Shown here: piece after piece, positions 23,785 through 44,969 of the stretch
Position numbering within the stretch: the stretch's first letter is position 1
Layout: each line of letters opens with the position of its first letter
Assembly (NCBI GenBank): GCA_016219645.1
Contig: JACRLR010000016.1
Coordinates: 434,001-498,000, forward strand
Origin: Nitrospirota bacterium
GTDB taxonomy: Bacteria > Nitrospirota > Nitrospiria > Nitrospirales > Nitrospiraceae
Direction of reading: 5' to 3'
DNA length: 64,000 bases
Notes under the pieces: model-generated
Told to the model about the DNA's origin: nothing
Databases searched by the model: none
The model's input: only the letters and a program-made list of their open reading frames with translations
Program-made: the position numbers and the translations under genes

Positions 23785-23796
23785 GGAGGCCGGATC

Positions 23797-27359: not shown

Positions 27360-28274
27360 ATGCGACACAGGTTTATTTGGCGTGCAATCACTCTCTCCCT
27401 CCTGATCATCATGGGAAGCCTACAGGACGCAGGGGCTGGGTCGAGGCCATCACCGGAACTGGCCCGCCATTTGACCAGGATCGCGGGGTTGGCCAAGTCG
27501 TCACCGTTGGTGACCATCCCAGCCGGTCCGTTCTTGCTCGGCAGCAAGCGAGTGGACGACGATCCCTATGGGAACTGGACACAGTTCGACGACACTGAAC
27601 TTCCCCAACATCGAGTCTGGCTGGACACCTACGTGATGGATCGCGATGAAGTGAGCCTTGGGGAATACCTGGCATTCTTACAACAGCGAAAGCTCCATCC
27701 GTCGGACGAACTGCAGAAACTGATCTGGCACGTCATCACAATCCACTCTGTCGAGGACCAGACCCTCAGCCGGTGGCCCGCGCTCTATGTCACATGGGCC
27801 GAGGCGAAAGACTTCTGCGTGGCAAAGAGTGCAAGGCTTCCAACTGAAGCGGAATGGGAAAAAGCAGCGCGGGGGTCCGAAGGCGGCCTATTCCCCTGGG
27901 GTACAACCGCTCCCAACCCCACCGTCTCCATGTTCGGCCAGCACCACGTCCATGAGATCCCCATTCTCGCGGCAGTGGATTCGCATGAGGCCGGCAAGAG
28001 CCCCTATGGTCTCCATCACATGGCGGGAAATGTCGCCGAATGGGTCCAAGATTGGTTCGGGCCCGATTACTATGCGTATATGCCGGAGCGCAATCCACCG
28101 GGCCCGACCAGCGGGCGATACAAAAGTGTTCGCGGCGGCTCGTGGAAAAGTCACCAGGTCATGCTCCGAACGGCGACCCGTGGTGGCTCAGTGCCCGATC
28201 AACGTTTGGCTACAATCGGCTTCCGCTGTGCGAAATCACCTGTCCCTGATGACCAACCCTTCAGCGCAAAGTAG
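27360..28274 (+). CDS. SUMF1/FGE-fold exported protein 5
   Basis: The 304-residue protein has a signal peptide (hydrophobic about residues 8-20, then QDAGAGS) and a SUMF1 fold: IPAGPFLLGSKR, SARLPTEAEWEKAARG, PWGTTAP, GNVAEWVQDWFG, RGGSWKSH, GFRCAKS. As in the other copies the FGE cysteine pair is missing. The segment between the first and second blocks (about residues 95-135) is longer and more hydrophilic than in its paralogues. It is transcribed toward the small cupredoxin gene but is separated from it by 350 bases that contain a strong promoter, so it is probably a single-gene unit. Confidence 0.8.
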   Translation: MRHRFIWRAITLSLLIIMGSLQDAGAGSRPSPELARHLTRIAGLAKSSPLVTIPAGPFLLGSKRVDDDPYGNWTQFDDTELPQHRVWLDTYVMDRDEVSLGEYLAFLQQRKLHPSDELQKLIWHVITIHSVEDQTLSRWPALYVTWAEAKDFCVAKSARLPTEAEWEKAARGSEGGLFPWGTTAPNPTVSMFGQHHVHEIPILAAVDSHEAGKSPYGLHHMAGNVAEWVQDWFGPDYYAYMPERNPPGPTSGRYKSVRGGSWKSHQVMLRTATRGGSVPDQRLATIGFRCAKSPVPDDQPFSAK

Positions 28275-30673: not shown

Positions 30674-31390
30674 ATGCTTGAATGGCTGAAGGAGCCGGGG
30701 TTTTTTGGAACCCACGCCACGGTTGGTGCGGACATGAGCCAGCTTATGGCCACGTTCTTTACCGGGCTTTTCGTGGTCGGTTGGATCCAGGCGAAGAAAC
30801 GTCGGGCAGATGCCCATCATTGGATGATGTTCGGCGGGATGATCGCCATGGTCGCGTTCTTCATCAGCTACTACCTCTTTCGTCAATTAGGGGTGTTGGC
30901 CTTTGAAGGGAAGGAAGGCTTTGGCGGGTCCCAAGCGCTCTATGATTATGTCTTCATTCCCGTGTTGACGATACACATTATCCTGGTCATTCTCGGACTG
31001 ATCATGGCGGTCTACATGATCGTGCTGGGTTTTCGCGCACAACAAGTGATAGACGGTGTACGCACCCTCAAGGAGACCCTGTTGCTCACGACTTGGAAGA
31101 AAATCGGATTGATCTTCGGCACGCTCACGGCACTGATCATGCTGTTGTTTATCTCGCGCGTCGTCACGGCCGATTTCTCGATGCGGAAATTCGAAGTCTA
31201 TGTCTCATTGCTGGCTGTGATCGCCATCGTGTTCGTGGTCGAAATGACGATTCAACGGATCTGGCCGAACGGGGCGCGACGCCATCGGGCGCTGGGACTG
31301 TTCACGATGGTCGTGTATTGCATCCTCTTTGTGACCGGGACCACCACCTACACGATGCTCTATCTCTTGTACCCGGGGAAGATCGGATGA
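30674..31390 (+). CDS. DUF420-family membrane protein
   Basis: The 238-residue protein has six to seven hydrophobic segments and no signal peptide. Conserved histidines lie at helix ends as in DUF420/CtaM-like proteins: HHWMMFGGM, then FISYYLFRQ, FIPVLTIHIILVILGL and finally RRHRALGLFTMVVYCILFVT. DUF420 proteins sit in the cytoplasmic membrane near heme-copper oxidase genes; the related CtaM is needed for oxidase maturation. This copy is longer than typical members, with an extra central loop. Position two genes upstream of a bd-like oxidase suggests that it helps assemble or feed that oxidase, but a direct quinol or heme function is possible too. Confidence 0.72.
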   Translation: MLEWLKEPGFFGTHATVGADMSQLMATFFTGLFVVGWIQAKKRRADAHHWMMFGGMIAMVAFFISYYLFRQLGVLAFEGKEGFGGSQALYDYVFIPVLTIHIILVILGLIMAVYMIVLGFRAQQVIDGVRTLKETLLLTTWKKIGLIFGTLTALIMLLFISRVVTADFSMRKFEVYVSLLAVIAIVFVVEMTIQRIWPNGARRHRALGLFTMVVYCILFVTGTTTYTMLYLLYPGKIG

Positions 31391-31485
31391 TTGATGGGTG
31401 ATTTGTCATGAGTGATCGGTACGCAATACGGCGGTGGCGGATATTCTCGTGTTCCGAGACCCCTCACGCCTCACGGTATTTTGTC

Positions 31486-31980
31486 ATGTTGACCTGTGGT
31501 TGCGGTCGCTGGATGCATACAGAGGGAGTTGAAGAACGTTCGTACGGTGATGGAACGATCCAGTGGTTCATTCGAACAGAATGTCGTGGCTGTGGGCTCA
31601 AAGTGGGAGTTGATGTCCCTGCCGGTCAAACCGGCGGACTCGTCGATCGGATCATGTGGACCGATGAGGCGATCCATCGGTTGGATCGCATGCCCCCGTA
31701 TCTTGCCCCACTCGTGCGAGGCGAGGTCGAGCAAGATGTCCGGGGGAGGGGAGAGAGAGTCGTGACCTACGACCTGTTGCTTCGTCCAAGAACAGGTGAG
31801 CGAATCGAGTGGGATCTTGATGCCGAACGTCGATTGGACAGAGTGCCGGCTCCGGTACGTGCCATGGCCCGTGTCGAATTGGAGAGGACTGCGGCGGATC
31901 GCGGGGAAACGCGTATCACCGTAGCGCTGATGGAAGAAGTGAAGGCGCGCTATTTCGGAATGGGAGCACAGAAGACGTAA
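31486..31980 (+). CDS. Zinc-ribbon protein with two PCP_red-like domains
   Basis: I prefer ATG 31486 (164 aa). The upstream in-frame ATG at 31408 would add 26 residues encoded by the CCTCACGCCTCACGG simple repeat. The N-terminus has four cysteines as CGC and CRGC (about residues 4-36), a likely small metal-binding ribbon. Two consecutive PCP_red-type helical domains follow. The first runs from MWTDEAIHRLDRMPPYLAPL. The second, clearer one runs from WDLDAERRLDRVPAPVRAMA to ITVALMEEVKARYFGMG. PCP_red was named from the C-terminus of light-independent protochlorophyllide reductase subunit B, but short forms occur in non-phototrophs with unknown role. The protein is cytoplasmic and encoded between two membrane proteins of the oxidase region. 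Confidence 0.68.
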   Translation: MLTCGCGRWMHTEGVEERSYGDGTIQWFIRTECRGCGLKVGVDVPAGQTGGLVDRIMWTDEAIHRLDRMPPYLAPLVRGEVEQDVRGRGERVVTYDLLLRPRTGERIEWDLDAERRLDRVPAPVRAMARVELERTAADRGETRITVALMEEVKARYFGMGAQKT

Positions 31981-32038
31981 GGGGTGAGGCGTCAGGGGTA
32001 AGGCGAGAACAACGGAGGCCCGTCACCTTACGCCTCAC
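31981..32038. repeat. GTGAGGCGTAAGG-type simple repeat hairpin
   Basis: GTGAGGCGTCAGGGGTAAGG follows the stop codon, and the opposite-orientation block CCTTACGCCTCACGG (32024-32038) ends nine bases before the next start codon. Related blocks occur at 31461-31477 and at 2602-2628. It is an inverted arrangement of a degenerate short repeat. Confidence 0.55.
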
Positions 32039-32047
32039 GGAATTAGT

Positions 32048-33121
32048 ATGCTGCATCGGATGGCATTACGAGTGTTACCCAGTCTGAGTTTGGCCGTCAC
32101 AGAAGATTCTGTGCGCAAGAAGAAGCGGATTGTCATGTTTGTGCCGGGGCTCGTGGCGTTCGCTGTCTATCGGTTGGCTAAACTCCTGTTGCCTCTGTCC
32201 GAACCGATCGTGTTGTTGATGGTCAGCGGTCTCGTCTCGTTGGTCACAGCTTTCCTGGCCTATCGTGTCGGCCGTGCCACTCCATGGAGCAGGATTGTTC
32301 GAGAGGACAAGACTCAGTTGCTGTTCTGGCTTGGCGGCTGGATTGGGTTTGTGTATGGGGTCCAGTTGTCTCTGCTGGTTCTGGCCTTGCTCTGGCTTGT
32401 TGGATATGACTATCTCAAACATCCGGATGGGCCGGCCATGATGGCCATCATTATTTCCTGCACGTCTGTTGCACGTGACGCTTTCGAGATCGGGCATGTA
32501 CGAAAAATCGCCCTCATGGGCCGTCCGTTCCCGACATTTCCTGACGGGGCGGCCCTCCGCACGATGGTAGGCAGCTTTGCAATTGGACTTGTTCCGTGGG
32601 TTGCGACCGGGCTCATCGTCGGCGCGCTGGGCGCCTCGTTGGGCCACCTGGTCGAGGCCTATCAGGGCGCGGCCATTGTTCAGCTGTCCGCGGTGGCGTT
32701 GTTGGGGGGCGGGGTCGCACTCTGTGCTCACTTCGGCGGGCTTCGCCCGCACGCATCATGGATTCAAGGACTCGTACGGACAAAAGCGGGTGAATTGCTC
32801 AAGTATTGGTGGTGGCCAGGGCTTTCCTTTGCCGCGACCTACTATCTGGTTGCTGCGGGCTGTGTGATTTTCCTCTTGAAGCAACCGGGAATTCCCACAG
32901 CCTATGCGATGGCTGCAGGCGGATTCGTGACTGGTATGATGGCGCTCTATTGTTACTATCTTGGATTTCGCCGGCACATAGAAGAGCAACAGGGGCACAC
33001 GATGTCAAGCGCGCTGCTCAGATGTCCCTTCGTCATGGGAATTCTCGGCAAATCACCGGGGACAGGGATTTCAGCATCGGCTGGCGCTGGTACAGGCTCC
33101 GTTTCCGGCTCGAAAGTATAA
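32048..33121 (+). CDS. Multispanning membrane protein of unknown family
   Basis: The 357-residue protein has about eight hydrophobic segments beginning near residue 30 (IVMFVPGLVAFAVYRLAKLL). A cytoplasmic-looking loop carries a possible histidine pair (FEIGHVRKIALMG, then HFGGLRPHASW). The last 30 residues are Gly/Ser-rich and polar. No family motif is recognised. It ends four bases before the bd-like oxidase gene, so the two are almost certainly co-transcribed and perhaps translationally coupled. It may be an accessory or second membrane subunit (a CydB-like role), but no CydB motif is visible. Confidence 0.55.
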   Translation: MLHRMALRVLPSLSLAVTEDSVRKKKRIVMFVPGLVAFAVYRLAKLLLPLSEPIVLLMVSGLVSLVTAFLAYRVGRATPWSRIVREDKTQLLFWLGGWIGFVYGVQLSLLVLALLWLVGYDYLKHPDGPAMMAIIISCTSVARDAFEIGHVRKIALMGRPFPTFPDGAALRTMVGSFAIGLVPWVATGLIVGALGASLGHLVEAYQGAAIVQLSAVALLGGGVALCAHFGGLRPHASWIQGLVRTKAGELLKYWWWPGLSFAATYYLVAAGCVIFLLKQPGIPTAYAMAAGGFVTGMMALYCYYLGFRRHIEEQQGHTMSSALLRCPFVMGILGKSPGTGISASAGAGTGSVSGSKV

Positions 33122-33125
33122 GTCC

Positions 33126-34997
33126 ATGGTGATGAAGAGGCAGGCCTACAGAGTCTTCGGCTATCTCGTCCTGCTGCTCGCCGTTCTCTCGGCGTTGGTG
33201 ATGGACGGGGGTTCGTACAGCCAATCCTTTGCCGAGACCAGCACCGATCTGTATTTCAAGACACCGGGGATTCCACAGGGGCCGCCAGCTCCTTCTCCTG
33301 AGGAAACGGTCTACTCGCGCATCGGATCATTCGACAGCCGATTGCTCGTGTGGTTCATCACGCAACAGCACACGTATTTCGGCGGGTTTGTTCTTGCTCT
33401 GCCGATTTTTTGTGTATTGCTGGAATTTCTGGGGCTCAGCAGCAGAAATCCCGCACTCGCCCTTCGCTACGATGGTCTCGCCCGCGATTTGGCCAAAGTT
33501 GCCCTTCTCGCCCTCTCGGCTACAGCCGTGATCGGAGGCCTCATGCTGGGGATGTTTCTCTATTTCTACCCCAGCTTCATGCAGTACATGGGTGGGACAT
33601 TCAAGTCCTTTATGCCGGTCTATGCGGTTGTGTTTGTCGGAGTGTCGCTGCTGCTCGTCGTCTATTACTATAGCTGGAACCGGATGGCCACCCCGGCCTT
33701 GAAATGGGGGCATGCGTCGATCGGCTTGCTGACTAACGTGTTCGGGACGGCTCTCCTGCTCTCAGCAAATGCCTGGTCGGCCTTCATGATGGCTCCGTCC
33801 GGTGTCGATGCGCAGGGACGGTTTCTGGGGAATGGATGGCATTTACTCCATTCGGCTCTGTGGAATCCATTGAACGTCCATCGATTTCTGGCTGACATCA
33901 TGTCCGGGGGCGCGGTGGTGTTGGCCTACGCCTGCTACCGGTTTTTCACCAGCAAGACCGACAAAGAGCGGGCCTACTTCGATTGGGTCGGGCATGTCTT
34001 TTTGTTTGTCATGGTCTGCGCATTGTTACCGATGCCATTTGCCGGCTACTGGTTGATGCGATCGGTGTACTCGTTTAGCCAGAGCATGGGCGTGACAATG
34101 ATGGGTGGATTGCTCACCTGGCTCTTTGTAGTACAGGCCCTCTTGATCGGTGTCCTGTTCCTCGGAATAAACTTTTATATCTGGCAAAGTATGGCGCGCC
34201 TTCGCGGCGGGGAACGCTATCATCCCTATTATCAAATGCTGCTCACCGTGTTCATGGTGGCATTGGTTATTTGGCTGACCCCGCATACGGTGTTCATGTC
34301 GGCCAGTGAAGTCAAGGCGATGGGTGGTGCGCAACATCCCGTGGTCGGCAACTACGGAGTGATGTCGGCAAAGAACGGCGCGATCAACATTATGATTCTC
34401 GTGACCACCATGAGTTTTCTCTATTACCGTCGTGCCAATAGAACAATCGTTGTGTCTTGGGCCAAGAAAGGGAACATCCTCATGGGCGCGCTCTTCCTCC
34501 TGGGGGCGCTCAATATTATTTGGCTTTCTGTCTATGGGTACTATTTGCCGGCGAATCTCCGCATCGGCTTGTCGACGCCACAGGCTGCGACGACGTTGAC
34601 GGTCCTCGTGATCGGGGCGGTCATCAATCGCATGATGCTCAAAGGGGCGGTGGTCCACGGGCCGATCCAATGGGGTAAGATCTCCCTCAGAGGCATGGTG
34701 GGCTTGTTCGGATTGGCTGCCGCATTTTCCTGGGTCATGGGCCTTATGGGCTATATCCGTTCCTCGGGACGGTTGGCATGGCATGTGAGTGAACTGATGG
34801 CCGATGTCTCTCCCTGGTCCTTTACACCGGATTTCGCGTTTGCTGCGAAGATGGTGACACTCAACATGACGGTGTTTTGGGGCGCGGTGCTGACTATCTT
34901 CTGGATGTGCCGGCGTGGGGAGTCGCCTGCGATGGGAGAGGAGTCGGCTGAAGAGAATGCAAGGGCACTGGCGCCGCCGTCGTCGCAAGAGGCGTAA
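33126..34997 (+). CDS. Cytochrome bd-like oxidase subunit I (copy 1)
   Basis: The 623-residue membrane protein has an N-terminal hydrophobic leader, a short periplasmic proline-rich stretch (PGIPQGPPAPSP) and more than ten transmembrane segments. It matches the CydA-like oxidases described for Nitrospira: VWFITQQHTYFGGF (H19-like heme ligand region), APSGVDAQGRFLG, WHLLHSALWNPLNVHRFLAD and GNYGVMSAKNG. The quinol-loop motif GRQPW of canonical CydA is not present. In Nitrospira such proteins are proposed as terminal oxidases taking electrons from cytochrome c during nitrite oxidation; quinol use is less likely without that loop. No typical CydB gene follows. It is a paralogue of 38682-40595 with clear similarity throughout. 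ATG 33126 lacks a good ribosome site, and translation may depend on the preceding gene. Confidence 0.8.
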   Translation: MVMKRQAYRVFGYLVLLLAVLSALVMDGGSYSQSFAETSTDLYFKTPGIPQGPPAPSPEETVYSRIGSFDSRLLVWFITQQHTYFGGFVLALPIFCVLLEFLGLSSRNPALALRYDGLARDLAKVALLALSATAVIGGLMLGMFLYFYPSFMQYMGGTFKSFMPVYAVVFVGVSLLLVVYYYSWNRMATPALKWGHASIGLLTNVFGTALLLSANAWSAFMMAPSGVDAQGRFLGNGWHLLHSALWNPLNVHRFLADIMSGGAVVLAYACYRFFTSKTDKERAYFDWVGHVFLFVMVCALLPMPFAGYWLMRSVYSFSQSMGVTMMGGLLTWLFVVQALLIGVLFLGINFYIWQSMARLRGGERYHPYYQMLLTVFMVALVIWLTPHTVFMSASEVKAMGGAQHPVVGNYGVMSAKNGAINIMILVTTMSFLYYRRANRTIVVSWAKKGNILMGALFLLGALNIIWLSVYGYYLPANLRIGLSTPQAATTLTVLVIGAVINRMMLKGAVVHGPIQWGKISLRGMVGLFGLAAAFSWVMGLMGYIRSSGRLAWHVSELMADVSPWSFTPDFAFAAKMVTLNMTVFWGAVLTIFWMCRRGESPAMGEESAEENARALAPPSSQEA

Positions 34998-35015
34998 AAT
35001 CGAAAGGGGTGGGGC

Positions 35016-35672
35016 ATGAGTGGAGGGGTAATGATTCGGCGATGTCTTGCAGTCTGGCTCGTGGTCTGTGGAGGTTTCTTGATAGATGCGGCGGTCTCGG
35101 CTCAAGGCCAGTCCTTAGTCTTAGAGGATTTTCAAGCCACAGAAGCGGACGGATTTCCCTCGAATTGGGAACATGAAAATCAACGAAGCCAGTCCAAAGG
35201 GCGAGATGCCTATAAGGTCCAGACAGAGAACGGTGTAAATTTTCTGGCGGCGAGGGATGCGGGACAGAGGATCAAAAAGAAGAAGATCGATTGGGACCCG
35301 AAGGCCTATCCGGTTCTCACCTGGCGTTGGCGCCTGCAAAAAGCCACAGCGGAAAATGAACCGGTTGCGGCGATCTATGCCTCGCTGGACACCGACCTGA
35401 TGTTCATTCCTGTTTTCACGAAGTATGTCTGGAGCGCCACCAAGCCCGAAGGGACCTTTACTGAAGGCGGCATGTTCAGCGGCTCGGAGATCGTGGTGCA
35501 AAGCGGCACGAAGGAAGTCGGTCAGTGGTTTGAAGAGCGAGTGAACGTCTACGAGGACTTCAAACGAATACACAAGCATGAGCCGGCTGCCAAGGCCTGG
35601 GGTATTTCGATCATCGCCGGGTCTGGCGTAGAAATCGATTTTGGTTCGATGGTCGCAAGCGCTGGACGCTAG
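35016..35672 (+). CDS. Exported DUF3047-family protein
   Basis: The 218-residue protein has a signal peptide (hydrophobic about residues 10-27, ending AAVSAQG). The mature part matches DUF3047: VLEDFQATEADGFPSNWEHE near the N-terminus, YPVLTWRWRLQ in the middle and AWGISIIAGSGVEIDFGSM at the end. The family is a periplasmic beta-sandwich of unknown function. Two starts have good ribosome sites: ATG 35016 (after AAAGGGG) and ATG 35031 (after GGAGGGG). I keep the longer form. It follows bd-like oxidase 1 by 18 bases, in the same direction, and is probably part of its operon. Confidence 0.72.
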   Translation: MSGGVMIRRCLAVWLVVCGGFLIDAAVSAQGQSLVLEDFQATEADGFPSNWEHENQRSQSKGRDAYKVQTENGVNFLAARDAGQRIKKKKIDWDPKAYPVLTWRWRLQKATAENEPVAAIYASLDTDLMFIPVFTKYVWSATKPEGTFTEGGMFSGSEIVVQSGTKEVGQWFEERVNVYEDFKRIHKHEPAAKAWGISIIAGSGVEIDFGSMVASAGR

Positions 35673-35693
35673 CAGGCCGTCCTCCTGGTTGCT

Positions 35694-35792
35694 TTGGTTT
35701 GTTTAGTTTGTCTTGTTTGTTTGGTTTTTGGTTGAATAAAACTAACCAGATAAACCAAATCAACCAAACAAACCAAATGAACCAGACAAACC
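35694..35792. repeat. AACCAAA-type heptad palindrome, copy 2
   Basis: A T/G arm (35694-35734) and an A/C arm (35742-35792, with AACCAGATAAACCAAATCAA) form an imperfect hairpin of about 40 bp. Like copy 1 it starts within about 25 bases of a stop codon and ends near the next gene. It may act as a terminator-like structure, although no dedicated U-tract is evident. Confidence 0.7.
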
Positions 35793-35834
35793 AGTGGTTC
35801 AAGCAACTTGCCGGAGAAAAAGGCTGTTGCAATC

Positions 35835-36206: not shown

Positions 36207-37130
36207 ATGGAAAAGAAGGGAGTACTCATCGGTTCGATCGTCTTCGTCTTTGGGTCCTTCCTCCTGATGATCTGCCTGATGGTCTATGAGTCCTACAAGG
36301 CGAAACAAATGAAGGCACTGGCCGCCTCAATCAAGTCCGAAGCTCGTCCTGCGCCGACCAGCACAACGGCACAGGATTATTCCATGTATAAAACGAAGAT
36401 CGGCGATGAAGGCCGGGAGATGGTGCAAATACCGGAAGGCCCCTTCATCATGGGCAGCAAAGATGGCGATCCGGATGAAGCGCCGGAACGTCAGACGTAT
36501 CTTAAGGCATTTTATCTCGATGCGAAGGAGGTTTCTCAAGAAGAATATGCCCGATTCGCCAAGATGACCAAAAGGCCACTGCCCAAGATCGAAGTCTTCG
36601 AAGACGATCAATCCAAACTGCTCCGGCCAGAATTTGCGGCCATGAGCATGACATGGGAGGATGCCGCAGCCTATTGCAAATGGGCCGGGAAGCGCCTTCC
36701 CACGGAGGCGGAGTGGGAAAAGGCCGGTCGTGGTGAGGGAAAGCGGAAGTACGCGTGGGGTGACACCTTCTTAACTGGCCGTGCCAATGCGAATGTCGAT
36801 GGGAGTGAAGACGGATTTCGGTATCTGGCGCCTCCTGGATCTTTCGAGACCGGGCGAAGCCCCTATGGGCTGTATGACATGACCGGGAATGTGGCGGAGT
36901 GGGTCGCGGATACCTATGATGAGCACTACTACCAAAAGGCGCCGTATCGCGATCCGAAGGGGCCGGAACCAAGTGATCTGAAAGTCGTCCGTGGAGGGTC
37001 GTGGCGAGAGACCGAGCATAATGCCCGGCTTTCCAAGCGATTTGCCGCAAAGCATTGGCGAACGGACATCACGATCGGGTTTCGCTGTGCGAGCGATGTG
37101 GAGACCGGCGAGAGCCCTGCGCCGTCATAA
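36207..37130 (+). CDS. Membrane-anchored SUMF1/FGE-fold protein 6
   Basis: The 307-residue protein has one N-terminal anchor (about residues 6-27, GVLIGSIVFVFGSFLLMICL) rather than a cleaved signal, a linker, then the SUMF1 fold outside the membrane: IPEGPFIMGSKDGDPDEAPE, GKRLPTEAEWEKAGRG, AWGD, GNVAEWVADTYD, RGGSWRET, GFRCASD. The FGE cysteine pair is absent (KRFAAKHWRTDIT). It is followed five bases later by another anchored SUMF1 gene. The pair sits between the two bd-like oxidase genes, so an oxidase- or cytochrome-linked structural role is suggested by position. Confidence 0.83.
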   Translation: MEKKGVLIGSIVFVFGSFLLMICLMVYESYKAKQMKALAASIKSEARPAPTSTTAQDYSMYKTKIGDEGREMVQIPEGPFIMGSKDGDPDEAPERQTYLKAFYLDAKEVSQEEYARFAKMTKRPLPKIEVFEDDQSKLLRPEFAAMSMTWEDAAAYCKWAGKRLPTEAEWEKAGRGEGKRKYAWGDTFLTGRANANVDGSEDGFRYLAPPGSFETGRSPYGLYDMTGNVAEWVADTYDEHYYQKAPYRDPKGPEPSDLKVVRGGSWRETEHNARLSKRFAAKHWRTDITIGFRCASDVETGESPAPS

Positions 37131-37135
37131 CAGCA

Positions 37136-38026
37136 ATGCTCGAAACGAAATTCAAAGTTCTGTTTCTCATTGCTATTCTTGCCTTTGCCGCGATCCCCAT
37201 TATGGGCATCCTCCGCGGCAGCATGTTGACTCCCTTTGAAAAATCTTCAGATGATTCCAGTGAAACGATCCAGGCAGGGGCGCCCGATTCCTCTAAGCTG
37301 TCTCAGGAAGAGCCGGTTCGTGAAGAAATGGTCATGATCCCCGCGGGCCCCTTTATCCGCGGGACCAGTCAAGGCGGGCTCGATGAGCACCCGCAGCGGA
37401 CATTGGTGCTGGATGCATTTGCTATCGATCAGTATGAAGTGACCAACTTCCAATATCAACAGTTTGTGCATGCCACGGGCCATCGCAAATCTGGTCCTCC
37501 AGCCCGCTATGCCAAGAATATGAGCAAGATGCAGGGCGTCAATCAACCTGTCGTCTATGTGTCATGGGAGGATGCGGAGGCCTACTGCAGCTGGAAGGGG
37601 AAACGCCTGCCGACTGAAGCGGAATGGGAGAAGGCCATGCGGGGGCCGGATGGCCGTCTCTGGCCTTGGGGGAACGTCGAGAAGCCTAATGGAGCCAATT
37701 GGGCCAGGGTAGACGATGGGTATGAGGTTTCTGCCTCTGTCGGCACGATTCAAACTGATAAGAGCCCTTATGGTGTCATGGATGGGGCGGGAAACGTGAT
37801 GGAATGGGTCAACGACTGGTATGCGGAACGTTACTTCGAAGAGGCTCCAGAAAAGAACCCTCCCAGCCCAGATCATGGTGTATTTCGGGTACTTCGAGGA
37901 GGAGGCTATGCGACCACCGGAGCTGATATCCGCATCACCAGCCGGAGCAAAATGGTCCCGGACTTTCGCGATGAAACGATCGGATTTCGTTGTGCCAGTT
38001 CTGCGGCAAAGCTGGAGAAGGGCTGA
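37136..38026 (+). CDS. Membrane-anchored SUMF1/FGE-fold protein 7
   Basis: The start is ATG 37136 (296 aa, MLETKFKVLF), five bases after the previous stop; earlier in-frame starts lie inside the upstream gene. An anchor spans about residues 6-24 (KVLFLIAILAFAAIPIMGIL). The SUMF1 fold follows: IPAGPFIRGTSQGGLDEHPQ, GKRLPTEAEWEKAMRG, PWGN, GNVMEWVNDWYA, RGGGYATT and GFRCASS. The FGE cysteine pair is again missing. It differs from protein 6 in sequence but shares its topology, so the two could form a heteromeric scaffold. It is the last gene before the small-protein/oxidase operon at 38276. Confidence 0.82.
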   Translation: MLETKFKVLFLIAILAFAAIPIMGILRGSMLTPFEKSSDDSSETIQAGAPDSSKLSQEEPVREEMVMIPAGPFIRGTSQGGLDEHPQRTLVLDAFAIDQYEVTNFQYQQFVHATGHRKSGPPARYAKNMSKMQGVNQPVVYVSWEDAEAYCSWKGKRLPTEAEWEKAMRGPDGRLWPWGNVEKPNGANWARVDDGYEVSASVGTIQTDKSPYGVMDGAGNVMEWVNDWYAERYFEEAPEKNPPSPDHGVFRVLRGGGYATTGADIRITSRSKMVPDFRDETIGFRCASSAAKLEKG

Positions 38027-38044: not shown

Positions 38045-38149
38045 TTATAGGAAATCAAAGTAATAGAGGATGAGGAACACGGCCAAAATGATATTGACAA
38101 CCATACCGACCAAAACTATAATGTCGAACACTTTTGAGTTTCGTTTCAT
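38045..38149 (-). CDS. 34-residue single-TM miniprotein, antisense to the operon direction
   Basis: On the minus strand an ATG (38147-38149) opens a 34-codon frame: a basic start (MKRNSKV) and one hydrophobic helix (FDIIVLVGMVVNIILAVFLI) ending YYFDFL. It has its own ribosome site (AGGGGAA, seven bases before the ATG) and a good sigma-70-like promoter upstream (38188-38216). The size and topology are those of small accessory subunits of respiratory oxidases, but it runs opposite to all neighbours and overlaps no other gene. I know of no family for it. The coherent promoter, ribosome site and membrane helix make chance less likely. Confidence 0.5.
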   Translation of the reverse strand: MKRNSKVFDIIVLVGMVVNIILAVFLILYYFDFL

Positions 38150-38275: not shown

Positions 38276-38416
38276 ATGGGCGACGCATCAGCAACACCAG
38301 CGAGACCACCGGACAGCGACCTGAAAATCGCGATCGGCAAAATGATTTTCTACATCACCTGCGCAGTCGGCCTGTGGTTTTTCTATTGGTTTGCCGGAAT
38401 TCAATGCCCCTGTTAA
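38276..38416 (+). CDS. 46-residue single-TM miniprotein
   Basis: ATG 38276 follows GAGGGAGA and opens a 46-codon frame. It has a polar proline-rich start (MGDASATPARPPDSDLK), one hydrophobic helix (MIFYITCAVGLWFFYWFAGI) and a terminal QCPC with two cysteines. It is in the same direction as bd-like oxidase 2 and 60 bases ahead of a second miniprotein. Small single-helix subunits are common in bd and other oxidases (CydX-like), and position supports that. The final CxC could bind metal or heme. No family is recognised. Confidence 0.6.
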   Translation: MGDASATPARPPDSDLKIAIGKMIFYITCAVGLWFFYWFAGIQCPC

Positions 38417-38476
38417 TACGTGGCGCATTGCGTCGGGATCTTTTATACGCCTGCAAGGTTTAAGGGAGAGGATATC

Positions 38477-38599
38477 ATGGGAAGTGCAATCATCTATGGA
38501 GCAATATCTCTCGTCATCTGTGTCGCATACTTTCTCACAGTCGACCACTTCTTGATGGATTCTCAGGGCCTCGACTTCTGGTATTTATTCCGGAAGTAG
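38477..38599 (+). CDS. 40-residue single-TM miniprotein
   Basis: ATG 38477 follows AAGGGAGAGGA, a strong ribosome site, and opens a 40-codon frame with one helix (IIYGAISLVICVAYFLTVDH) and an aromatic basic tail (LDFWYLFRK). It lies 82 bases before the bd-like oxidase 2 start and follows the 46-residue miniprotein. A role as a small structural subunit of the oxidase complex is inferred from position, size and topology. Confidence 0.6.
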   Translation: MGSAIIYGAISLVICVAYFLTVDHFLMDSQGLDFWYLFRK

Positions 38600-38681
38600 A
38601 AGGTGGCGTCCGGCTGCTCCGAAAAGGTTTATGGAGAAACATGAGATGAGTTTTTTTCTGAATGCATCAAGGAGGTATTTC

Positions 38682-40595
38682 ATGGGACGTGTAGTCGGGA
38701 AGAAGCTGTTCTCGATCATGGCGCTTGCCGCGATGATCGGCCTTCTCCTGCTCCCCATCGCCGTATCGCTTCCTTCACTGGCTATAGGCGCTGATGCCCC
38801 TGATGCAGTGAAAGGTGAAGGGGATGCGAAGTTCGAGAAGGGGCGGGATGTGTATTATAAGACGGAGGGGCTTGCCATTGGCGCTCCTGCTCCGAAGACC
38901 GTCGACGGTCCCAAGGATTATCCACGGTACAACTTCGAAAGCCGCGTATTGCTCTGGTTCGCGAACCAGCAGCACCTGTATTACGGGAGCTTCGTGCTCG
39001 CAGTCCCAATCTTCTGCATGGTTATTGAGTTCATGGGGGTCATGACGAAAGATAAGGCGATGGCGAAGAAGTATGACCAGCTCGCCTACGATTTCATCAA
39101 GATCAGCCTGACGGCCTATTCGTTGACCGCGATTCTTGGTGGTATTCTGATCTTCACCTTCCTCACGCTGTATCCCGCATTCTTCGGTTACTTATCCAGT
39201 ATTTTCCGTCCGGTGATGCATATTTATGCCCTGATGTTTGTCGCAGAGAGCGGAACTCTCTACATCTATTATTACGGTTGGGACAAGATGAAGGAGGGGT
39301 TCCTTAAATATATTCACTTGAGCATGTCCGTGGTGTTGAACGTGATCGGGACCCTGCTCATGTTCCTGGCGAACTCCTGGATCGGCTTCATGATGTCACC
39401 GGCCGGCGTCGATGAACAGGGCCGGTTCCTGGGGAACATTTGGCACGTCATTCATACGGCCCTCTGGAATCCGCTCAACGTGCATCGTATTTTGGGAAAT
39501 ATGGCTTTCGGTGGTGGTGTCGTGGCGGCATACGCGGCCTACAAGTTTTTGGCATCAAAAACGGACGAGGATCGTGCGCATTATGACTGGATGGGTTATA
39601 TCGCCATGGCGCTGGGTGTGGCGTTCCTGATCCCCTTACCCTTTGCAGGGTACTGGTTGATGCGGGAGGTCTATGCCTACCGGCAACAGATGGGGATCAC
39701 GCTCATGGGCGGTCTCCTGGCCTGGCTCTTCATTATTCAAGCCACCATGATCGGCATTCTTTTCTTGAGCACGAACTACTACCTCTGGCAGGCGCTTGGC
39801 CGTATGCGCGGCGCTGAGAAGTATCAACGGTACATTAAGTATCTCGTGTTCATCCTCTGTTGCGGTTACCTGGTCTTCATCACTCCCCACACGATCGTCA
39901 TGACTCCGGCTGAGCTCAAAGCGATGGGTGGTCAGCAACATCCGGTGTTGGGAAATTATGGGGTCATGTCTGCCAAAAACGGCGGTATTAACGTCATTAT
40001 CACGACGACCATTTTGAGCTTCGTCTGGTACATGCGAGGCAATAAGGTCTCGACTGTATCCTGGTCAAAGTTCGGTAATATTTTCATGGGCGTCTTTTTT
40101 GCCTGTGCCTATGTCAACATTATCTGGTTGGCGATTTACGGGTACTATATCCCGGCAAACGTGCGAGTCGGCTTGTCAGTGCCTCAAGTTGCCACCACCT
40201 TGTCCTGCCTCTTCTTCATGTTCCCGCTTAACGCTGCCATGATGAAGGGCGCCAAACAGATGGGGGCGATCGAGTGGGGCAAGATATCCGTTCGATCGCA
40301 ATATGCCTTGATCATGCTCGCAACTGCCTTCACCTGGATGATGGGGTTGATGGGATACATACGTTCTTCGGTCCGATTGTTCTGGCATGTGAACGAGATC
40401 ATGCGTGACAACTCACCTTGGGCCTACACACATACGGTGGGGTTTGCCGCGAACATGATTTCATTCAATGTGCTGTTCTTCTGGGTGAGTATCCTGTTCG
40501 TCTTCTGGCTGGGAAGCCTTGGGATGAAGAAGGCTCCTGTTGAGGCGAAGGCAGGGGTTCCAGGCGGCGCACCGCAGCCGGCTGGGGGCCACTAA
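38682..40595 (+). CDS. Cytochrome bd-like oxidase subunit I (copy 2)
   Basis: ATG 38682 (637 aa) is preceded by AAGGAGG at six bases, better than the ATG at 38631. A hydrophobic leader (to about residue 35, SLAIGADA) and a charged periplasmic segment precede more than ten transmembrane helices. Conserved blocks are those of copy 1: LLWFANQQHLYYGSF, SPAGVDEQGRFLGN, WHVIHTALWNPLNVHRILGN, GNYGVMSAKNG, GYIRSS. The canonical CydA quinol loop GRQPW is absent. The C-terminus is a short Gly/Pro/Ala-rich tail. It is followed by two c-type cytochromes and an NxrC-like protein. This suggests a complex taking electrons from cytochrome c and reducing O2 in the inner membrane, as proposed for Nitrospira; this is inference from family and context. 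Confidence 0.82.
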   Translation: MGRVVGKKLFSIMALAAMIGLLLLPIAVSLPSLAIGADAPDAVKGEGDAKFEKGRDVYYKTEGLAIGAPAPKTVDGPKDYPRYNFESRVLLWFANQQHLYYGSFVLAVPIFCMVIEFMGVMTKDKAMAKKYDQLAYDFIKISLTAYSLTAILGGILIFTFLTLYPAFFGYLSSIFRPVMHIYALMFVAESGTLYIYYYGWDKMKEGFLKYIHLSMSVVLNVIGTLLMFLANSWIGFMMSPAGVDEQGRFLGNIWHVIHTALWNPLNVHRILGNMAFGGGVVAAYAAYKFLASKTDEDRAHYDWMGYIAMALGVAFLIPLPFAGYWLMREVYAYRQQMGITLMGGLLAWLFIIQATMIGILFLSTNYYLWQALGRMRGAEKYQRYIKYLVFILCCGYLVFITPHTIVMTPAELKAMGGQQHPVLGNYGVMSAKNGGINVIITTTILSFVWYMRGNKVSTVSWSKFGNIFMGVFFACAYVNIIWLAIYGYYIPANVRVGLSVPQVATTLSCLFFMFPLNAAMMKGAKQMGAIEWGKISVRSQYALIMLATAFTWMMGLMGYIRSSVRLFWHVNEIMRDNSPWAYTHTVGFAANMISFNVLFFWVSILFVFWLGSLGMKKAPVEAKAGVPGGAPQPAGGH

Positions 40596-40675
40596 TCATC
40601 TATAGAAATTTGGTTGGGGGAGTGCCGGCGTAAAAGGCCTGGCTGCTTCTACCCAGACCTCAGGAGGTTACTACT

Positions 40676-41989
40676 GTGAAAGAGCTGGTCATAGAAGCTC
40701 TAAGAATAGGCTGGCCGTTATTTGCACTTCTCGCCGGTCTTTTCGTGTATTCCATCGTGTCGGGCAAGGACGCCGCGGCAAAGAAAAGCGCGATGTTCAA
40801 GCTCTTTATCGGTACGCTTGGCGCTTGCCTGCTGTTACTGGCAATTGCACACTATAAGGGGAGCTTCTATGAAGCGAACCGGATGCTTCCAGTCTCTTTA
40901 GTGCTCATCACGGCAACGTGTTTTATGTTGGGAATCTATTTTCCCAATCACGCGGCCCTACTCAAGATCGGTGGCTTCATGTTCCTTGTGGCAGCCGGCC
41001 TGTCAGGCTATGGGAATTGGTTGCCGCAAGTTGAAGGAGGTTTCCCTCCGAAAGAAGAAAAGCTTCAGTATGAAGCTATGACCGCACAGCAACTCGCCGA
41101 TGAAGGCGAAAAAATCATCTTCGGTGGGATTGGAAAGAATAAGGAACAGGGTGCGGTCGGCAAAGGCCAATGCCCTCTCTGTCATGCGTTCCATGCCGGA
41201 ATGCTCGGCGAGCGTGCTCCCAATCTACAGGGCCTTCCAACACGAGCGGGGAAAGAGCGGTTGGAGGATCCAAAGTACAGTAAGGGAAATCCGAAGGGTC
41301 GGGAATTTGATGATAAGGAAGCGTTCCCGGGTGCCGGGACTGCGGAGAATGGGCAGGAATATATCGCTGAGTCCCACGCATGCCCGAGCTGCTATGTCGT
41401 GGTCGGCTATGGCGTCAAGGGAACCAACGATAAGTCAAGCCCGATGCCCGCGATTCATAAGCCACCGATCTCGTTGACGCTTCCAGAGTTAGCTGCTGTC
41501 GATACCTGGTTATACTTGCGCGAGGGGGTTGATGCTCCGTCATACGATGAGATAATCAAGTCCTATGAGAAGTTTATTCCTGAAGCTGATAGGCCCAAAG
41601 CACAAGAAGACAAGCCGGCAGGTGCGGGAGGCTCGCTATTAGTTGATGGAACCGAGCCAATCGATGTGATTTTTTCCAAAGCCACCTGTGCCATGTGCCA
41701 TACGATTCCCGGTATCCCTGGTGCAGTCGGCAAACAAGGTCCTGTGCTTGAAGAGGGGACCAACGCGCCGAACCGGATCAAGGATCCGACGTACAAAGGG
41801 ACCGCGCATAACACGCAAGAGTACATCATGGAGTCCATCGTATCGCCCAGCACCTATGTCGTAAAAGGATTTCCTGACAATCTGATGCCAAAGGAATTTG
41901 GGACGAAGCTGAGCGCAGGGGCGTTGAAAAAGATCGTCGACTATCTGTCGCAGGTCAAAGCCGGTGCACCGCCACCGAAAACTTCATGA
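40676..41989 (+). CDS. Membrane-bound di-heme cytochrome c
   Basis: The GTG start (40676) follows AGGAGG. The 437-residue protein begins with three hydrophobic helices (to about residue 115) and then has a periplasmic part with two c-heme motifs, C166-PLC-H170 and C338-AMC-H342. Each heme is followed by an NGQEYIAESHA or NTQEYIMES block and by a downstream Met (SSPMP, NLMP) that may be the axial ligand. The second half repeats the first, so the protein arose by duplication of a mono-heme module. A CPSCY near residue 241 is not a heme site because histidine is absent. It lies in the bd-like oxidase 2 operon and would relay electrons to that oxidase. Confidence 0.85.
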   Translation: MKELVIEALRIGWPLFALLAGLFVYSIVSGKDAAAKKSAMFKLFIGTLGACLLLLAIAHYKGSFYEANRMLPVSLVLITATCFMLGIYFPNHAALLKIGGFMFLVAAGLSGYGNWLPQVEGGFPPKEEKLQYEAMTAQQLADEGEKIIFGGIGKNKEQGAVGKGQCPLCHAFHAGMLGERAPNLQGLPTRAGKERLEDPKYSKGNPKGREFDDKEAFPGAGTAENGQEYIAESHACPSCYVVVGYGVKGTNDKSSPMPAIHKPPISLTLPELAAVDTWLYLREGVDAPSYDEIIKSYEKFIPEADRPKAQEDKPAGAGGSLLVDGTEPIDVIFSKATCAMCHTIPGIPGAVGKQGPVLEEGTNAPNRIKDPTYKGTAHNTQEYIMESIVSPSTYVVKGFPDNLMPKEFGTKLSAGALKKIVDYLSQVKAGAPPPKTS

Positions 41990-42032
41990 TCATGGCCAAC
42001 CGTCTCTTTTGTCGAGCAATGGGAGTTCACCG

Positions 42033-43070
42033 ATGAAAGCAATAATGTCACTGGGGGCACTTATAGGGGTGGTAGGACTACTCCTGCTTGCCGGAATGAT
42101 TGTGGGGATCGTTCCATCAGACACTGTGCGCCTGATCGAAGGATACATGCCGGTCCAAGTTATCTTGGAGCTGACGCTGTTCGTAGCGGGGTTTACCGGG
42201 ATCAGCTACATGATGTCGGCCATGGGGATGGCGTTCCCCAGGTTTTGGCAAGGAATCAGTTGTTGGGCTTTCGTCCTCCTCTATTTGAAGTTTCGTGTGT
42301 ATCCCCCGATTCCCTTCAGCGTGCGCGCCATGTATGGGACAGTTTCGCTTGTCGCTGTCTTTATGTGGGTTTCCGCCAGCGAAGAAGATTGGAAGAAGTT
42401 CAAGCAGCCGATCATGAACGTCATGGATGCCAAGACAGGTGGAAACCGGTTGCTCAGGTATGCCTATCTGATTATCCTGCCGATTTTGATCGGAGGGTTC
42501 TCTTACAATGCCATGGTCCCGAAATCAGAAGAGCCGATTGAGTTGCGAACGGTGCATCCGGCCCCGCCAGCCAGCACGAAGGTGCATGGCAAGACCTATA
42601 CACTTCAAACATCGCAGAACCCTTACCGTGTCAATCCGGAAGGGAAGTACGATCAAGAGTATAGCAACGCCAATATCGTGGAACAGGGCATGGGCCGTCT
42701 AATGAAACCGAACGCCAACCCCTGGGATAAGGATGCGCAAGGGTACCTCAAGTATGTGCGTGAGGGCGGAGAGATCTTCTTCCAGAACTGCCACTTCTGC
42801 CATGGCGATAACTTGAACGGTCGTGGTCTCCACGCGTTCGCATTCAATCCGATTCCGGCAAACTTCACCGATCCAGGGACGATTGCGCAATTGCAAGAGA
42901 CCTTCATTTTCTGGCGTGTCTCCAAGGGCGGGATTGGCTTACCGAACGAGGGATTCCCTTGGGCCTCAGTCATGCCTCCATGGGAACAGCACTTGACTGT
43001 GGATGAAATCTGGAAAGTCGTCTTGTTTGAATATTGGCACACAGGATATTACCCCAGGACTTGGGACTAG
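42033..43070 (+). CDS. Membrane-bound mono-heme cytochrome c
   Basis: The start is ATG 42033 (345 aa), after GGGAG; an earlier in-frame start lies inside the preceding gene. Four to five hydrophobic helices occupy about residues 5-165. The periplasmic C-terminal domain carries one c-heme motif, C253-HFC-H257, followed by GDNLNGRG and by a likely axial Met in ASVMPPWEQ. This last motif and VSKGGIGLPNEGFPW are typical of cytochrome c modules linked to molybdoenzymes and oxidases. It probably hands electrons between the NxrC-like protein and the di-heme cytochrome or oxidase. No quinol site is recognised. Confidence 0.83.
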   Translation: MKAIMSLGALIGVVGLLLLAGMIVGIVPSDTVRLIEGYMPVQVILELTLFVAGFTGISYMMSAMGMAFPRFWQGISCWAFVLLYLKFRVYPPIPFSVRAMYGTVSLVAVFMWVSASEEDWKKFKQPIMNVMDAKTGGNRLLRYAYLIILPILIGGFSYNAMVPKSEEPIELRTVHPAPPASTKVHGKTYTLQTSQNPYRVNPEGKYDQEYSNANIVEQGMGRLMKPNANPWDKDAQGYLKYVREGGEIFFQNCHFCHGDNLNGRGLHAFAFNPIPANFTDPGTIAQLQETFIFWRVSKGGIGLPNEGFPWASVMPPWEQHLTVDEIWKVVLFEYWHTGYYPRTWD

Positions 43071-43129
43071 TCCTTCGAGGAATGAAGATCAGCCACCTTT
43101 GATTGACGACATGAGGGAAGAGGGAAGCC

Positions 43130-44902
43130 ATGAAGAATTCCTATAGTCTAAAGGCGGGCCTGTTGCCCATCGCTGTCTTTGGAATGATCTTGTTCTCTGG
43201 AAGTGCCGGGGGATTGGCCTCAGCGGCAGATTCACTTCCTGCCGGTTTTAAGGCTGGAGCGCTTTCACCAGCGCCGTCTGCAGACATGATCGAAGCAGGA
43301 AAGCGGGTCTACTTTACCAAGTGTGTCTGGTGTCATGGTGTCGATGGCGCTGGTGATGGACCAGGCGCTGATCGTCTCTGGCCGCGTCCCCGCAATTTCA
43401 ACCAGGGGACGTTCAAGATCAGGCACACAGCGAGCGGCGAATTGCCCTTGTTTGACGCAAAAAAGCCTGTTGAAGCACAGAACGATCTATTTGCCACTGT
43501 GACCCATGGTTTACCTGGCTCCGCCATGCCATCATGGGAAGGTATCTTGACGGAGGAACAGCGGCTTCAAGTCTTGTCGTTCGTCACGACTCAGCTTGTA
43601 AAAGATCGAAACTTTACAGACACGAAATCAGAGAGCCAGACTGTGTTGCAAATGGCCGAACTGAAGCCGATTGCCGCGTCGGAAGAGAGTTTGAAAAAGG
43701 GGGCCGAGCTTATTGTTGAAAAGAAGTGCGTTGAATGTCACGGCATGGAAGGCCGTGGCGACGGGAATGCGTTCAACTTGAAAGATGACTGGGGCTTTTC
43801 GATACAGCCCGCCAATTGGCACAAATGTTGGAACTTCAGGGGTAGTCGGCAGGATCCCTATAACGTCAACAATATATTCCGAACGTTTTCGACCGGGGTC
43901 AACGGTACTCCGATGCCCTCGTTTGCCGATAACACGACCGTTGAGGAACGTTGGCACATTGCGAACTTTGTGAACTCGCTCTGTGAGCGGGAAGCAGACG
44001 GGAAACCTCTGCCAATCGATCCACAGGCGGACAAGCCCAAGATCAACTTTGTATTGCCATCGGGGAAGGTCGAAGGAGAAATTCCGGCAGATCCTGAAAA
44101 CGAGCTCTGGACGAAGCGGGTTAGGCGGTATGTCGCGATGGGCGGTCAGATTACCCACAAACCAAGAAATTTCGTCAACCGGATCGACGATCTCTGGGTG
44201 AAGTCTCTCTATAACGACAAGTATGTCGTGTTCATGTTCCAGTGGGATGATAGGACCAAGAGTGTAGCCGAAGGGAAGTTACCCTGGGCTCCTACCGAGG
44301 TCAATGTCGATGTCAAGGAACAGGATCCGAAGACAGGGGAGGAGGGCTCTATTGCTGCGCGTCAGAATAATTACACGGTCTATAACGACGCGGTTGCCAT
44401 AGAGACTGCCATAAAATGGAAAGAGCTTCCTGCGCCGATTAAGCCGCGGTATCTCTTCGGCAGCAACGAACAGTTTCCCATGGACATTGTGAAATGGGAA
44501 GCGGATGGTTCGCTCCATGCCTTCAAGGGGACCGGATGGGATAAAGACTTTGAACAGCGGTTTGACTATGAAGAGAACATCAAGCTACTGCATTCGGAGT
44601 GGAAGAATGGCCGATGGACGGTCATCATTCAGCGTCCGTTGGGTGACAAGAAAGAGCAGGACTACGACTCTGATACCTTCTTCGAAATGGGTCAGTACAT
44701 TCCAACTGTGTTCTTTGCCTGGGATGGCCACAATGGAGATGCAGGGAGGAAGATGGCTGTCTCAGCCTTCTACTATACCTTCCTGGAGCCGCCAACCCCG
44801 CAAGAGGCGTATATCTACCCGATTGTGATTGCGGCTGGCGTGGTTCTTCTGGAGGGTTGGGTGCTGACCAGGCGATCGAATAAGCGGAAGAAGGGCCTCT
44901 AG
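43130..44902 (+). CDS. NxrC-like protein: two c-hemes plus ethylbenzene-dehydrogenase-type heme domain
   Basis: The 590-residue protein has a signal peptide (to about residue 33, GLASAADS), two cytochrome c domains with motifs C65-VWC-H69 and C200-VEC-H204, a beta-rich domain from about 315 to 555, and a C-terminal anchor (YIYPIVIAAGVVLLEGWVL) with a basic tail. The beta-rich part begins ELWTKRVRRYVAMGGQITHK, includes DLWVKSLYNDKYVVFMFQWD and resembles the heme-b domain of ethylbenzene-dehydrogenase-type gamma subunits, the family of NxrC. The N-terminal hemes show that it does more than a plain NxrC, and a separate electron-transfer protein is equally possible. No nxrA or nxrB gene lies in the window. 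It ends the respiratory operon at a strong terminator. Confidence 0.78.
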   Translation: MKNSYSLKAGLLPIAVFGMILFSGSAGGLASAADSLPAGFKAGALSPAPSADMIEAGKRVYFTKCVWCHGVDGAGDGPGADRLWPRPRNFNQGTFKIRHTASGELPLFDAKKPVEAQNDLFATVTHGLPGSAMPSWEGILTEEQRLQVLSFVTTQLVKDRNFTDTKSESQTVLQMAELKPIAASEESLKKGAELIVEKKCVECHGMEGRGDGNAFNLKDDWGFSIQPANWHKCWNFRGSRQDPYNVNNIFRTFSTGVNGTPMPSFADNTTVEERWHIANFVNSLCEREADGKPLPIDPQADKPKINFVLPSGKVEGEIPADPENELWTKRVRRYVAMGGQITHKPRNFVNRIDDLWVKSLYNDKYVVFMFQWDDRTKSVAEGKLPWAPTEVNVDVKEQDPKTGEEGSIAARQNNYTVYNDAVAIETAIKWKELPAPIKPRYLFGSNEQFPMDIVKWEADGSLHAFKGTGWDKDFEQRFDYEENIKLLHSEWKNGRWTVIIQRPLGDKKEQDYDSDTFFEMGQYIPTVFFAWDGHNGDAGRKMAVSAFYYTFLEPPTPQEAYIYPIVIAAGVVLLEGWVLTRRSNKRKKGL

Positions 44903-44933
44903 CGCTCATTTAACGGAGAGGGTCTTGAGTATG

Positions 44934-44969
44934 AAGAGGGGGTGGGGAGACCCACCCCCTCTTTCTTTT
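44934..44969 (+). terminator. Rho-independent terminator of the respiratory operon
   Basis: A perfect 13-bp stem, AAGAGGGGGTGGG with CCCACCCCCTCTT, closes a GAGA loop and is followed by TCTTTTT. It lies 31 bases after the NxrC-like stop codon and overlaps any longer start for the following mobA gene. Confidence 0.9.

Follow-up and report, generated by a model that had tools for sequence, protein, structure and literature searches.

A probable bd-like/cytochrome c operon of Nitrospirales, kept in relatives that lack NxrA and a candidate for reverse electron flow

The window, which is the whole 64-kb stretch of DNA analysed (G000:C16:434001-498000 of a 3.65-Mb genome), carries on its plus strand a six-gene unit that couples a bd-like protein to membrane cytochromes c and to an NxrC-like protein, alt_NxrC_2. 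The gene content of the genome and the match to published Nitrospira clusters suggest that the DNA comes from a Nitrospira. The unit is almost certainly the form that the published bd-like_3/alt_NxrC_2 operon takes in Nitrospirales, and is in that sense already known. Its gene order was found in three phyla, its relatives occur in genomes that lack NxrA, and both the bd-like protein and alt_NxrC_2 have lost residues known or proposed as ligands. The main role of the unit is proposed to be reverse electron flow in a cytochrome c-linked membrane complex, with a probability of about one half.

Results

Composition and bounds of the unit

The features are collected in Table 1. The six genes (38276-44902) follow one another in the order mini1, mini2, bd-like, diheme c, monoheme c and diheme-c/EB_dh protein, at the position where the initial annotation had described them as one unit. 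The perfect terminator that it had claimed at the end was confirmed, with 14 pairs, a stability of -30.1 kcal/mol (z -3.5) and no equally stable structure in 200 shuffles. The annotation had included neither mini0, which lies on the minus strand, nor the promoter within mini0. The mobA gene (ATG at about 44993) was considered as a further member and rejected, as it sits beyond the terminator.

Table 1. Position of the unit's features, of the second bd-like paralogue in the window and of seven-gene runs in other genomes (the latter in coordinates of their own loci)
Feature	Position	Strand	Evidence
bd-like_4, second bd-like paralogue, 623 aa, outside the operon	33126..34997	+	PF01654 E 3.8e-13
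mini0, 34 aa, single helix, divergent from the operon	38045..38149 (incl. stop codon)	-	
Sigma-70 type promoter TTGACA-N17-TATAAT, within the antisense mini0 gene	38094..38122	+	12/12 matches
mini1, 46 aa, single helix	38276..38416	+	tblastn 30/30 loci L006-L035; faint matches at the expected position in distant families
mini2, 40 aa, single helix	38477..38599	+	tblastn 30/30 loci L006-L035; RBS AAGGGAGAGG
bd-like protein (published bd-like_3), 637 aa	38682..40595	+	PF01654 N-terminal half, E 2.2e-19
Membrane-bound diheme cytochrome c, 437 aa	40676..41989	+	PF00034 E 2.9e-7; CxxCH 166, 338
Membrane-bound monoheme cytochrome c, 345 aa	42033..43070	+	PF13442 E 1e-6; CxxCH 253
alt_NxrC_2, 590 aa	43130..44902	+	PF00034, PF13442, PF09459; CxxCH 65, 200
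Intrinsic terminator, 14-bp stem, loop 4, T tail	44933..44964	+	
Seven-gene bd-like/NxrABC-like run	L115:1883-11288		
Seven-gene bd-like/NxrABC-like run	L193:75-9320		
Seven-gene bd-like/NxrABC-like run	L194:1021-10123		

The start of mini2 is better placed at the ATG at 38477 than at the GTG at 38420 (a 59-aa reading), because the former has its own Shine-Dalgarno site and is supported by the alignments. Likewise, the bd-like gene is better started at the ATG at 38682 than at 38631, given the AAGGAGG upstream of the former and the alignments; many homologues are interrupted by an in-frame stop at some point of the matching frame, in agreement with the later start. The diheme cytochrome c has four hydrophobic peaks at its N-terminus, and alt_NxrC_2 combines a signal peptide, two c-heme domains, an EB_dh domain and a C-terminal hydrophobic helix. 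That the six genes form one operon is very probable, and the reading as a single operon for a single membrane complex has good support in the gene order kept in three phyla, the one strong promoter, the one terminator and the high expression that the available text of PMC6606698 gives for the published cluster.

FGE-sulfatase genes (PF03781) were found at 22819-24771, 27360-28274 and 36207-38026 of the window, two of which immediately precede the operon; by eye, two similar-looking ORFs also lie upstream of the operon in another family of the class (L099:5296-8115). An AT-rich stretch at about 35690-35795, downstream of a DUF3047 gene, contains many AACCAAA/TTTGGTT near-repeats on both strands.

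Promoter and miniproteins

The promoter is the only exact match in 64 kb, and 100 shuffles gave none. It was exact in all 30 loci L006-L035 and in the three loci from two further families of Nitrospirales (L096-L098), which makes 33/33 Nitrospirales loci checked. Inside the operon, no plus-strand site scored above 9/12. A homologous mini0 ORF was present in 30/30 loci L006-L035 and in nine of the ten loci L096-L105 (37-88% identity in L096-L104, no match in L105); in L107 the mini0 homologue lies on the operon strand, upstream of mini1.

There is a residual probability that the conservation of the promoter is a mere shadow of the antisense mini0 coding sequence. The mini0 codons that overlie the hexamers (two Ile, ATT-ATA, and one Val, GTC) were identical in 30/30 rows with 25 distinct sequences while other mini0 codons, including those of the promoter spacer, varied, which argues against a shadow; yet AAA, TTG and GTT codons outside the hexamers were frozen too.

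Both mini1 and mini2 were present in 3/3 of L096-L098, with recognisable partners in more distant families. Neither had a Pfam or NCBIfam match, and mini0 had no NCBIfam match. A literature search covering titles and the first parts of abstracts returned nothing on Nitrospira miniproteins or on ligand loss in the EB_dh domain.

The bd-like protein and its paralogues

Where the initial annotation spoke of an oxidase, the gene is present and the label is an interpretation, as only the N-terminal half of the protein is covered by PF01654 (profile positions 2-241 of 418), unlike the canonical CydA of the same genome (3-418). This half is shared with canonical cytochrome bd (CydAB), as are the columns of His98 and His268, which correspond to His19 and His186 in E. 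coli numbering; His19 we take to be a heme ligand. His98, Glu189 and His268 are all kept in alignment with bd-oxidase positions. Ligand roles in cytochrome bd are given to Glu99, Glu445 and Met393 (E. coli numbering) in the available text of PMC6853902; the bd-like protein has no Glu at the first two columns and the Met393 column is not conserved, with less certainty for the C-terminal half, which aligns weakly. No match to a CydB partner was found among the operon proteins, and the cytochromes c in the operon are a further difference from canonical cytochrome bd. The Q-loop region of canonical CydA did not align with the bd-like protein and no quinone site was found in it. The proposal of a supercomplex without quinones thus fits in this narrow sense, and the loss is published: passages of PMC3578206 describe a bd-like protein of 14 helices, conserved in Kuenenia and Nitrospina, from which the quinol residues are lost.

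Gln419 and Phe567 occupy columns at which bd2-type paralogues have His (9/9 at 419, 8/9 at 567). Passages of PMC8026999 report Gln and Phe in place of His ligands at the positions proposed for CuB and the high-spin heme, and the identical substitutions suggest that columns 419 and 567 are these positions. The replacement of two proposed active-site His, together with a homologue in 18/18 anammox genomes, speaks against the second half of the proposed wiring, electron flow to O2. Among eight bd3-type rows from other Nitrospirota genomes, two (L101, L104) have His at 567. The window and anammox bd-like proteins are identical at all 28 tabulated positions but differ at 419 and 567, where the anammox proteins have Tyr and Asp, respectively. 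An AlphaFold2 model of the bd-like protein, built with the window paralogue as the only alignment partner, had a mean pLDDT of 37 and was not used.

In the same genome, PF01654 marks five places: the canonical CydA, bd1 and bd2 on contig C18, and two in the window. The second window protein, bd-like_4, is 49% identical to the operon protein; in four bd-like_4 sequences the Tyr194 and Glu329 positions were lost in 4/4 and Glu189 in 2/4. It lies a few genes upstream of the window unit, whereas in the published Nitrospira cluster it lies downstream. The bd-like_4 run (30674-35672) comprises genes for a DUF420 protein, a PCP_red-domain protein, a 357-aa ORF without a Pfam match, bd-like_4 and a DUF3047 protein. 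The layout is repeated, on one strand, by the bd2 operon of C18, which is the cluster of bd-like_2 (NIDE0901, OR-N2) and has a bd-like, a diheme-like, a monoheme-like, an EB_dh and a cytochrome gene; bd-like_2 is 42% identical to the bd-like protein of the window unit, which lacks the His at 419 and 567. The bd1/bd2 cluster has been proposed as oxidase (PMC6606698, PMC12342949), and a terminal oxidase role is given to OR-N1/OR-N2 proteins of the NIDE0901 type (PMC12342949, PMC10839748), in each case according to the available text.

The EB_dh domain of alt_NxrC_2

The EB_dh domain scored 38.9 bits against PF09459 (cut-off 33.3), so that the domain of the initial annotation stands; to call it a heme domain is an interpretation, since the two known heme-b ligands are absent. 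In the available text of PMC8387239 the heme b ligands of NXR-C are Met155 and Lys305. Their columns were located by aligning PDB 7b04_C with a Brocadia NxrC, and the window protein has Phe and Met there. In a 35-protein alignment both ligands were kept in 6/6 NxrC and in 6/6 anammox alt_NxrC, and neither in 14/14 alt_NxrC from bd3-type operons; at most one was kept in the proteins from other Nitrospirota (6/6) and from bd2-type operons (3/3). As judged from the aligned residues, a local shift could let a Lys adjoining the ligand column take over, and heme may still be bound by the His/Met pairs of L098, L101 and L104.

Among solved structures, 6h5l_B of Kuenenia comes closest to the two c-heme domains (E 1.4e-39). 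The likeness to the NXR gamma subunit NxrC (7b04_C) lies in the EB_dh domain; alt_NxrC_2 differs in its two extra c-heme domains and membrane helix, in the loss of both heme-b ligands and in a gene position that is not beside nxrAB.

Distribution and gene order

With an E-value limit of 1e-20, the bd-like query matched 137 of 295 Nitrospirota genomes. The order bd-diheme-monoheme-EB_dh on one strand was found in other Nitrospirales (L096-L098), in other families of the class (L099-L105), in other Nitrospirota (L106, L110, L112-L114), in 6/6 anammox loci (L148-L153) and in 3/4 Nitrospinota loci, L156 showing the first two genes only. Among the remaining loci, L107 has no EB_dh gene before the contig end, L108 and L109 are without the monoheme gene, in L111 only the bd-like gene is seen, close to the end of a contig, and the layout of L115 is different.

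A bd-like homologue was present in all 18 anammox genomes tested, which had been chosen for a close relative of one Kuenenia cytochrome (18 of 22 anammox-type loci used), and in four of the five Nitrospinota genomes tested, at 61-62% identity. Only 3/18 anammox genomes had a heme-copper match at E < 1e-100. The treatment of the anammox proteins as plain orthologues of the bd3 clade was dropped, because two trees disagree: one placed them with the bd2 side (98/99) and the other, a quick tree, with the bd3 side (SH-aLRT 89). They are therefore called homologues.

In G131 and G272, two genomes of family f5 that are at least 95% complete, the bd-like orthologue was the only PF01654 protein and no heme-copper oxidase (PF00115) scored above the cut-off; the same negative result for heme-copper oxidases was obtained in 12 of the 15 class-level genomes outside Nitrospirales. 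PF00268 (class I ribonucleotide reductase) and PF01077 were tried as indicators of an aerobic or an anaerobic way of life and discarded, as they gave no discrimination (2/26 and 26/26 genomes, respectively).

Independence from NxrA and the molybdoenzyme-linked runs

No molybdoenzyme was found among the operon proteins. In the window genome nxrC lies about 19 kb and nxrA about 25 kb downstream of the unit, beyond the window end. The nxrA/nxrB copies at L166:6007-10139 (C16:503506-507638) appear frameshifted and reach the contig end, which probably reflects how near-identical copies were assembled.

At E 1e-60, at least 96 of 295 Nitrospirota genomes had NxrA-type proteins, a lower bound like the other counts of this search, which scored no more than three candidates in each genome. 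The 15 class-level genomes outside Nitrospirales had none, and when the search was relaxed and every candidate scored, only local matches near 1e-6 appeared, in 3/15. In each of the same 15 genomes the bd-like query found a match with an E-value no higher than 3.5e-182 (60-67% identity in the 14 listed), and seven of them, those whose neighbourhood was examined (L099-L105), carried the full operon. Electron supply from a molybdoenzyme, as first proposed for the unit, is not borne out by these relatives, which have the bd-like orthologue and lack NxrA, or by the composition of the unit itself.

A gene arrangement of the imagined kind, with a molybdoenzyme, does exist elsewhere. L115, L193 and L194, from three families, each carry on one strand genes for a bd-like protein, two monoheme cytochromes, TorD and NxrA-like, NxrB-like and NxrC-like proteins, mostly with little or no intergenic space; L191 is a broken version. 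The NxrA-like proteins have 1147-1149 aa and match TIGR03479 below its curated cut-off (E 7e-87 in L115, 5e-84 in L193). Here the bd core belongs to another clade and a ligand position is lost: in the bd-like proteins of L115, L191, L193 and L194, His98 is replaced by Met and His403 by Arg (4/4).

Discussion

Counterparts of the bd-like_3/alt_NxrC_2 cluster are described for Nitrospira moscoviensis, N. defluvii, Nitrospina gracilis and Kuenenia in the available text of PMC6606698, PMC3578206 and PMC8026999. The N. moscoviensis cluster and the window unit agree in gene set and order, with an EB_dh protein of about 64-67 kDa; the N. moscoviensis alt_NxrC_2 has 66.8 kDa, a signal peptide, two c-hemes and one helix (PMC6606698). 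Relative to the cluster descriptions in the available published text, the three miniproteins, the promoter embedded in an antisense gene, the loss of the heme-b ligands and the relatives free of NxrA are additions. The chain from a molybdoenzyme to O2 is itself in print (PMC8026999; PMC3578206; PMC6606698), and reverse electron flow is the published preference in passages of PMC3578206 and PMC6606698.

For reverse electron flow, the bd-like heme protein would sit in the membrane, aided by the single-helix miniproteins, and would be joined in one complex by the two membrane-anchored c-type cytochromes and the periplasmic diheme cytochrome, the EB_dh domain having perhaps turned into a docking or structural domain. 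The most likely entry point for electrons would be the c-hemes of alt_NxrC_2 or the anchored cytochromes, from which they would pass on to the b-hemes of the bd-like protein. The donor would be a periplasmic high-potential cytochrome c pool, filled by nitrite oxidoreductase here and by other donors elsewhere, and the electrons would most likely pass to quinone at the expense of the proton motive force, a reverse flow serving CO2 fixation. The complex would then not be the main O2-reducing enzyme. This reading is favoured by the gene order shared by Nitrospirales, other families of the class, other Nitrospirota, anammox bacteria and Nitrospinota, with the homologue in every anammox genome tested and a strong heme-copper match in only three of these 18; by the class-level genomes, with the bd-like orthologue in 15/15 and NxrA in none; by Gln419/Phe567 and a separate bd1/bd2 cluster in the same genome; and by the published preference. 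It is weakened by the absence of the canonical quinone site and the failure to find another, by the bd-like protein being the sole candidate oxidase of its kind in G131 and G272, by the retention of His98, Glu189 and His268, and by the different placement of the anammox proteins in the two trees.

These retained residues are what would be expected if the bd-like protein reduced O2, with electrons passing from NXR through alt_NxrC and the two cytochromes in a quinone-free supercomplex. We regard this as rather unlikely. It agrees with the operon structure, with the published expression (PMC6606698) and with passages of PMC8026999 in which an alternative NxrC hands nitrite electrons to a bd-like terminal oxidase and Nitrospinota without other oxidases retain the bd-like operon. 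The class-level genomes without a heme-copper oxidase also point this way, and in particular G131 and G272, which have no other PF01654 or PF00115 candidate: if they breathe O2, the bd-like protein must be an oxidase. Murali is said to have treated, in 2021, the entire OR-N family as oxygen reductases. Against O2 reduction stand Gln419 and Phe567, the anammox homologues, the 15 NxrA-free class-level genomes, the lost heme-b ligands of the EB_dh domain and the bd1/bd2 pair of the same genome. As relatives occur both in anaerobes and in bacteria devoid of the nitrite-oxidising enzyme, a simple wire from nitrite to oxygen is improbable.

The agreement of the window and anammox proteins at the 28 tabulated positions would also suit a complex that only anchors soluble redox enzymes of the periplasm to the membrane and relays electrons, in which the bd-like protein is an electron-transferring low-spin-heme scaffold without a substrate site. 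The runs of three other Nitrospirota genomes, in which a bd-like protein with Met for His98 accompanies two cytochromes, TorD and an NxrABC-like enzyme, lend this some support; however, that anchored-enzyme operon belongs to a different bd clade, and a large duplicated membrane core would be unusual for anchoring alone, which makes this role improbable. Reduction of another small molecule such as NO, or protective scavenging of O2, is very unlikely: the protein is shared by aerobic nitrite oxidisers and anammox bacteria, which presumably both meet NO, and canonical bd enzymes may detoxify NO according to the available text of PMC12342949 and PMC10839748, but during steady nitrite oxidation the bd-like_3 cluster transcripts rank within the top 40 in that of PMC6606698, which exceeds what detoxification would lead one to expect, and nothing supports it directly.

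More generally, and tentatively, the four-gene core may be a distinct kind of general respiratory complex, bd-like and linked to cytochrome c, that depends on neither nitrite oxidoreductase nor oxygen and works mainly in reverse, from cytochrome c to quinone. In some other Nitrospirota a relative of the core would have been wired into a seven-gene operon with an NXR/NAR-type molybdoenzyme and have lost the His98 position. If this is true, the loss of His98 would make the oxidase fold a membrane module for electron transfer alone. The operon bears on the routes by which nitrite oxidisers and anammox bacteria raise high-potential electrons to quinone and on the identity of the enzyme that reduces O2 in Nitrospira, and it is among the most strongly transcribed Nitrospira units in print. 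The relatives free of NxrA, the loss of the heme-b ligands, the miniproteins and the natural bd/NXR-type operon offer tests between an oxidase and reverse electron flow.
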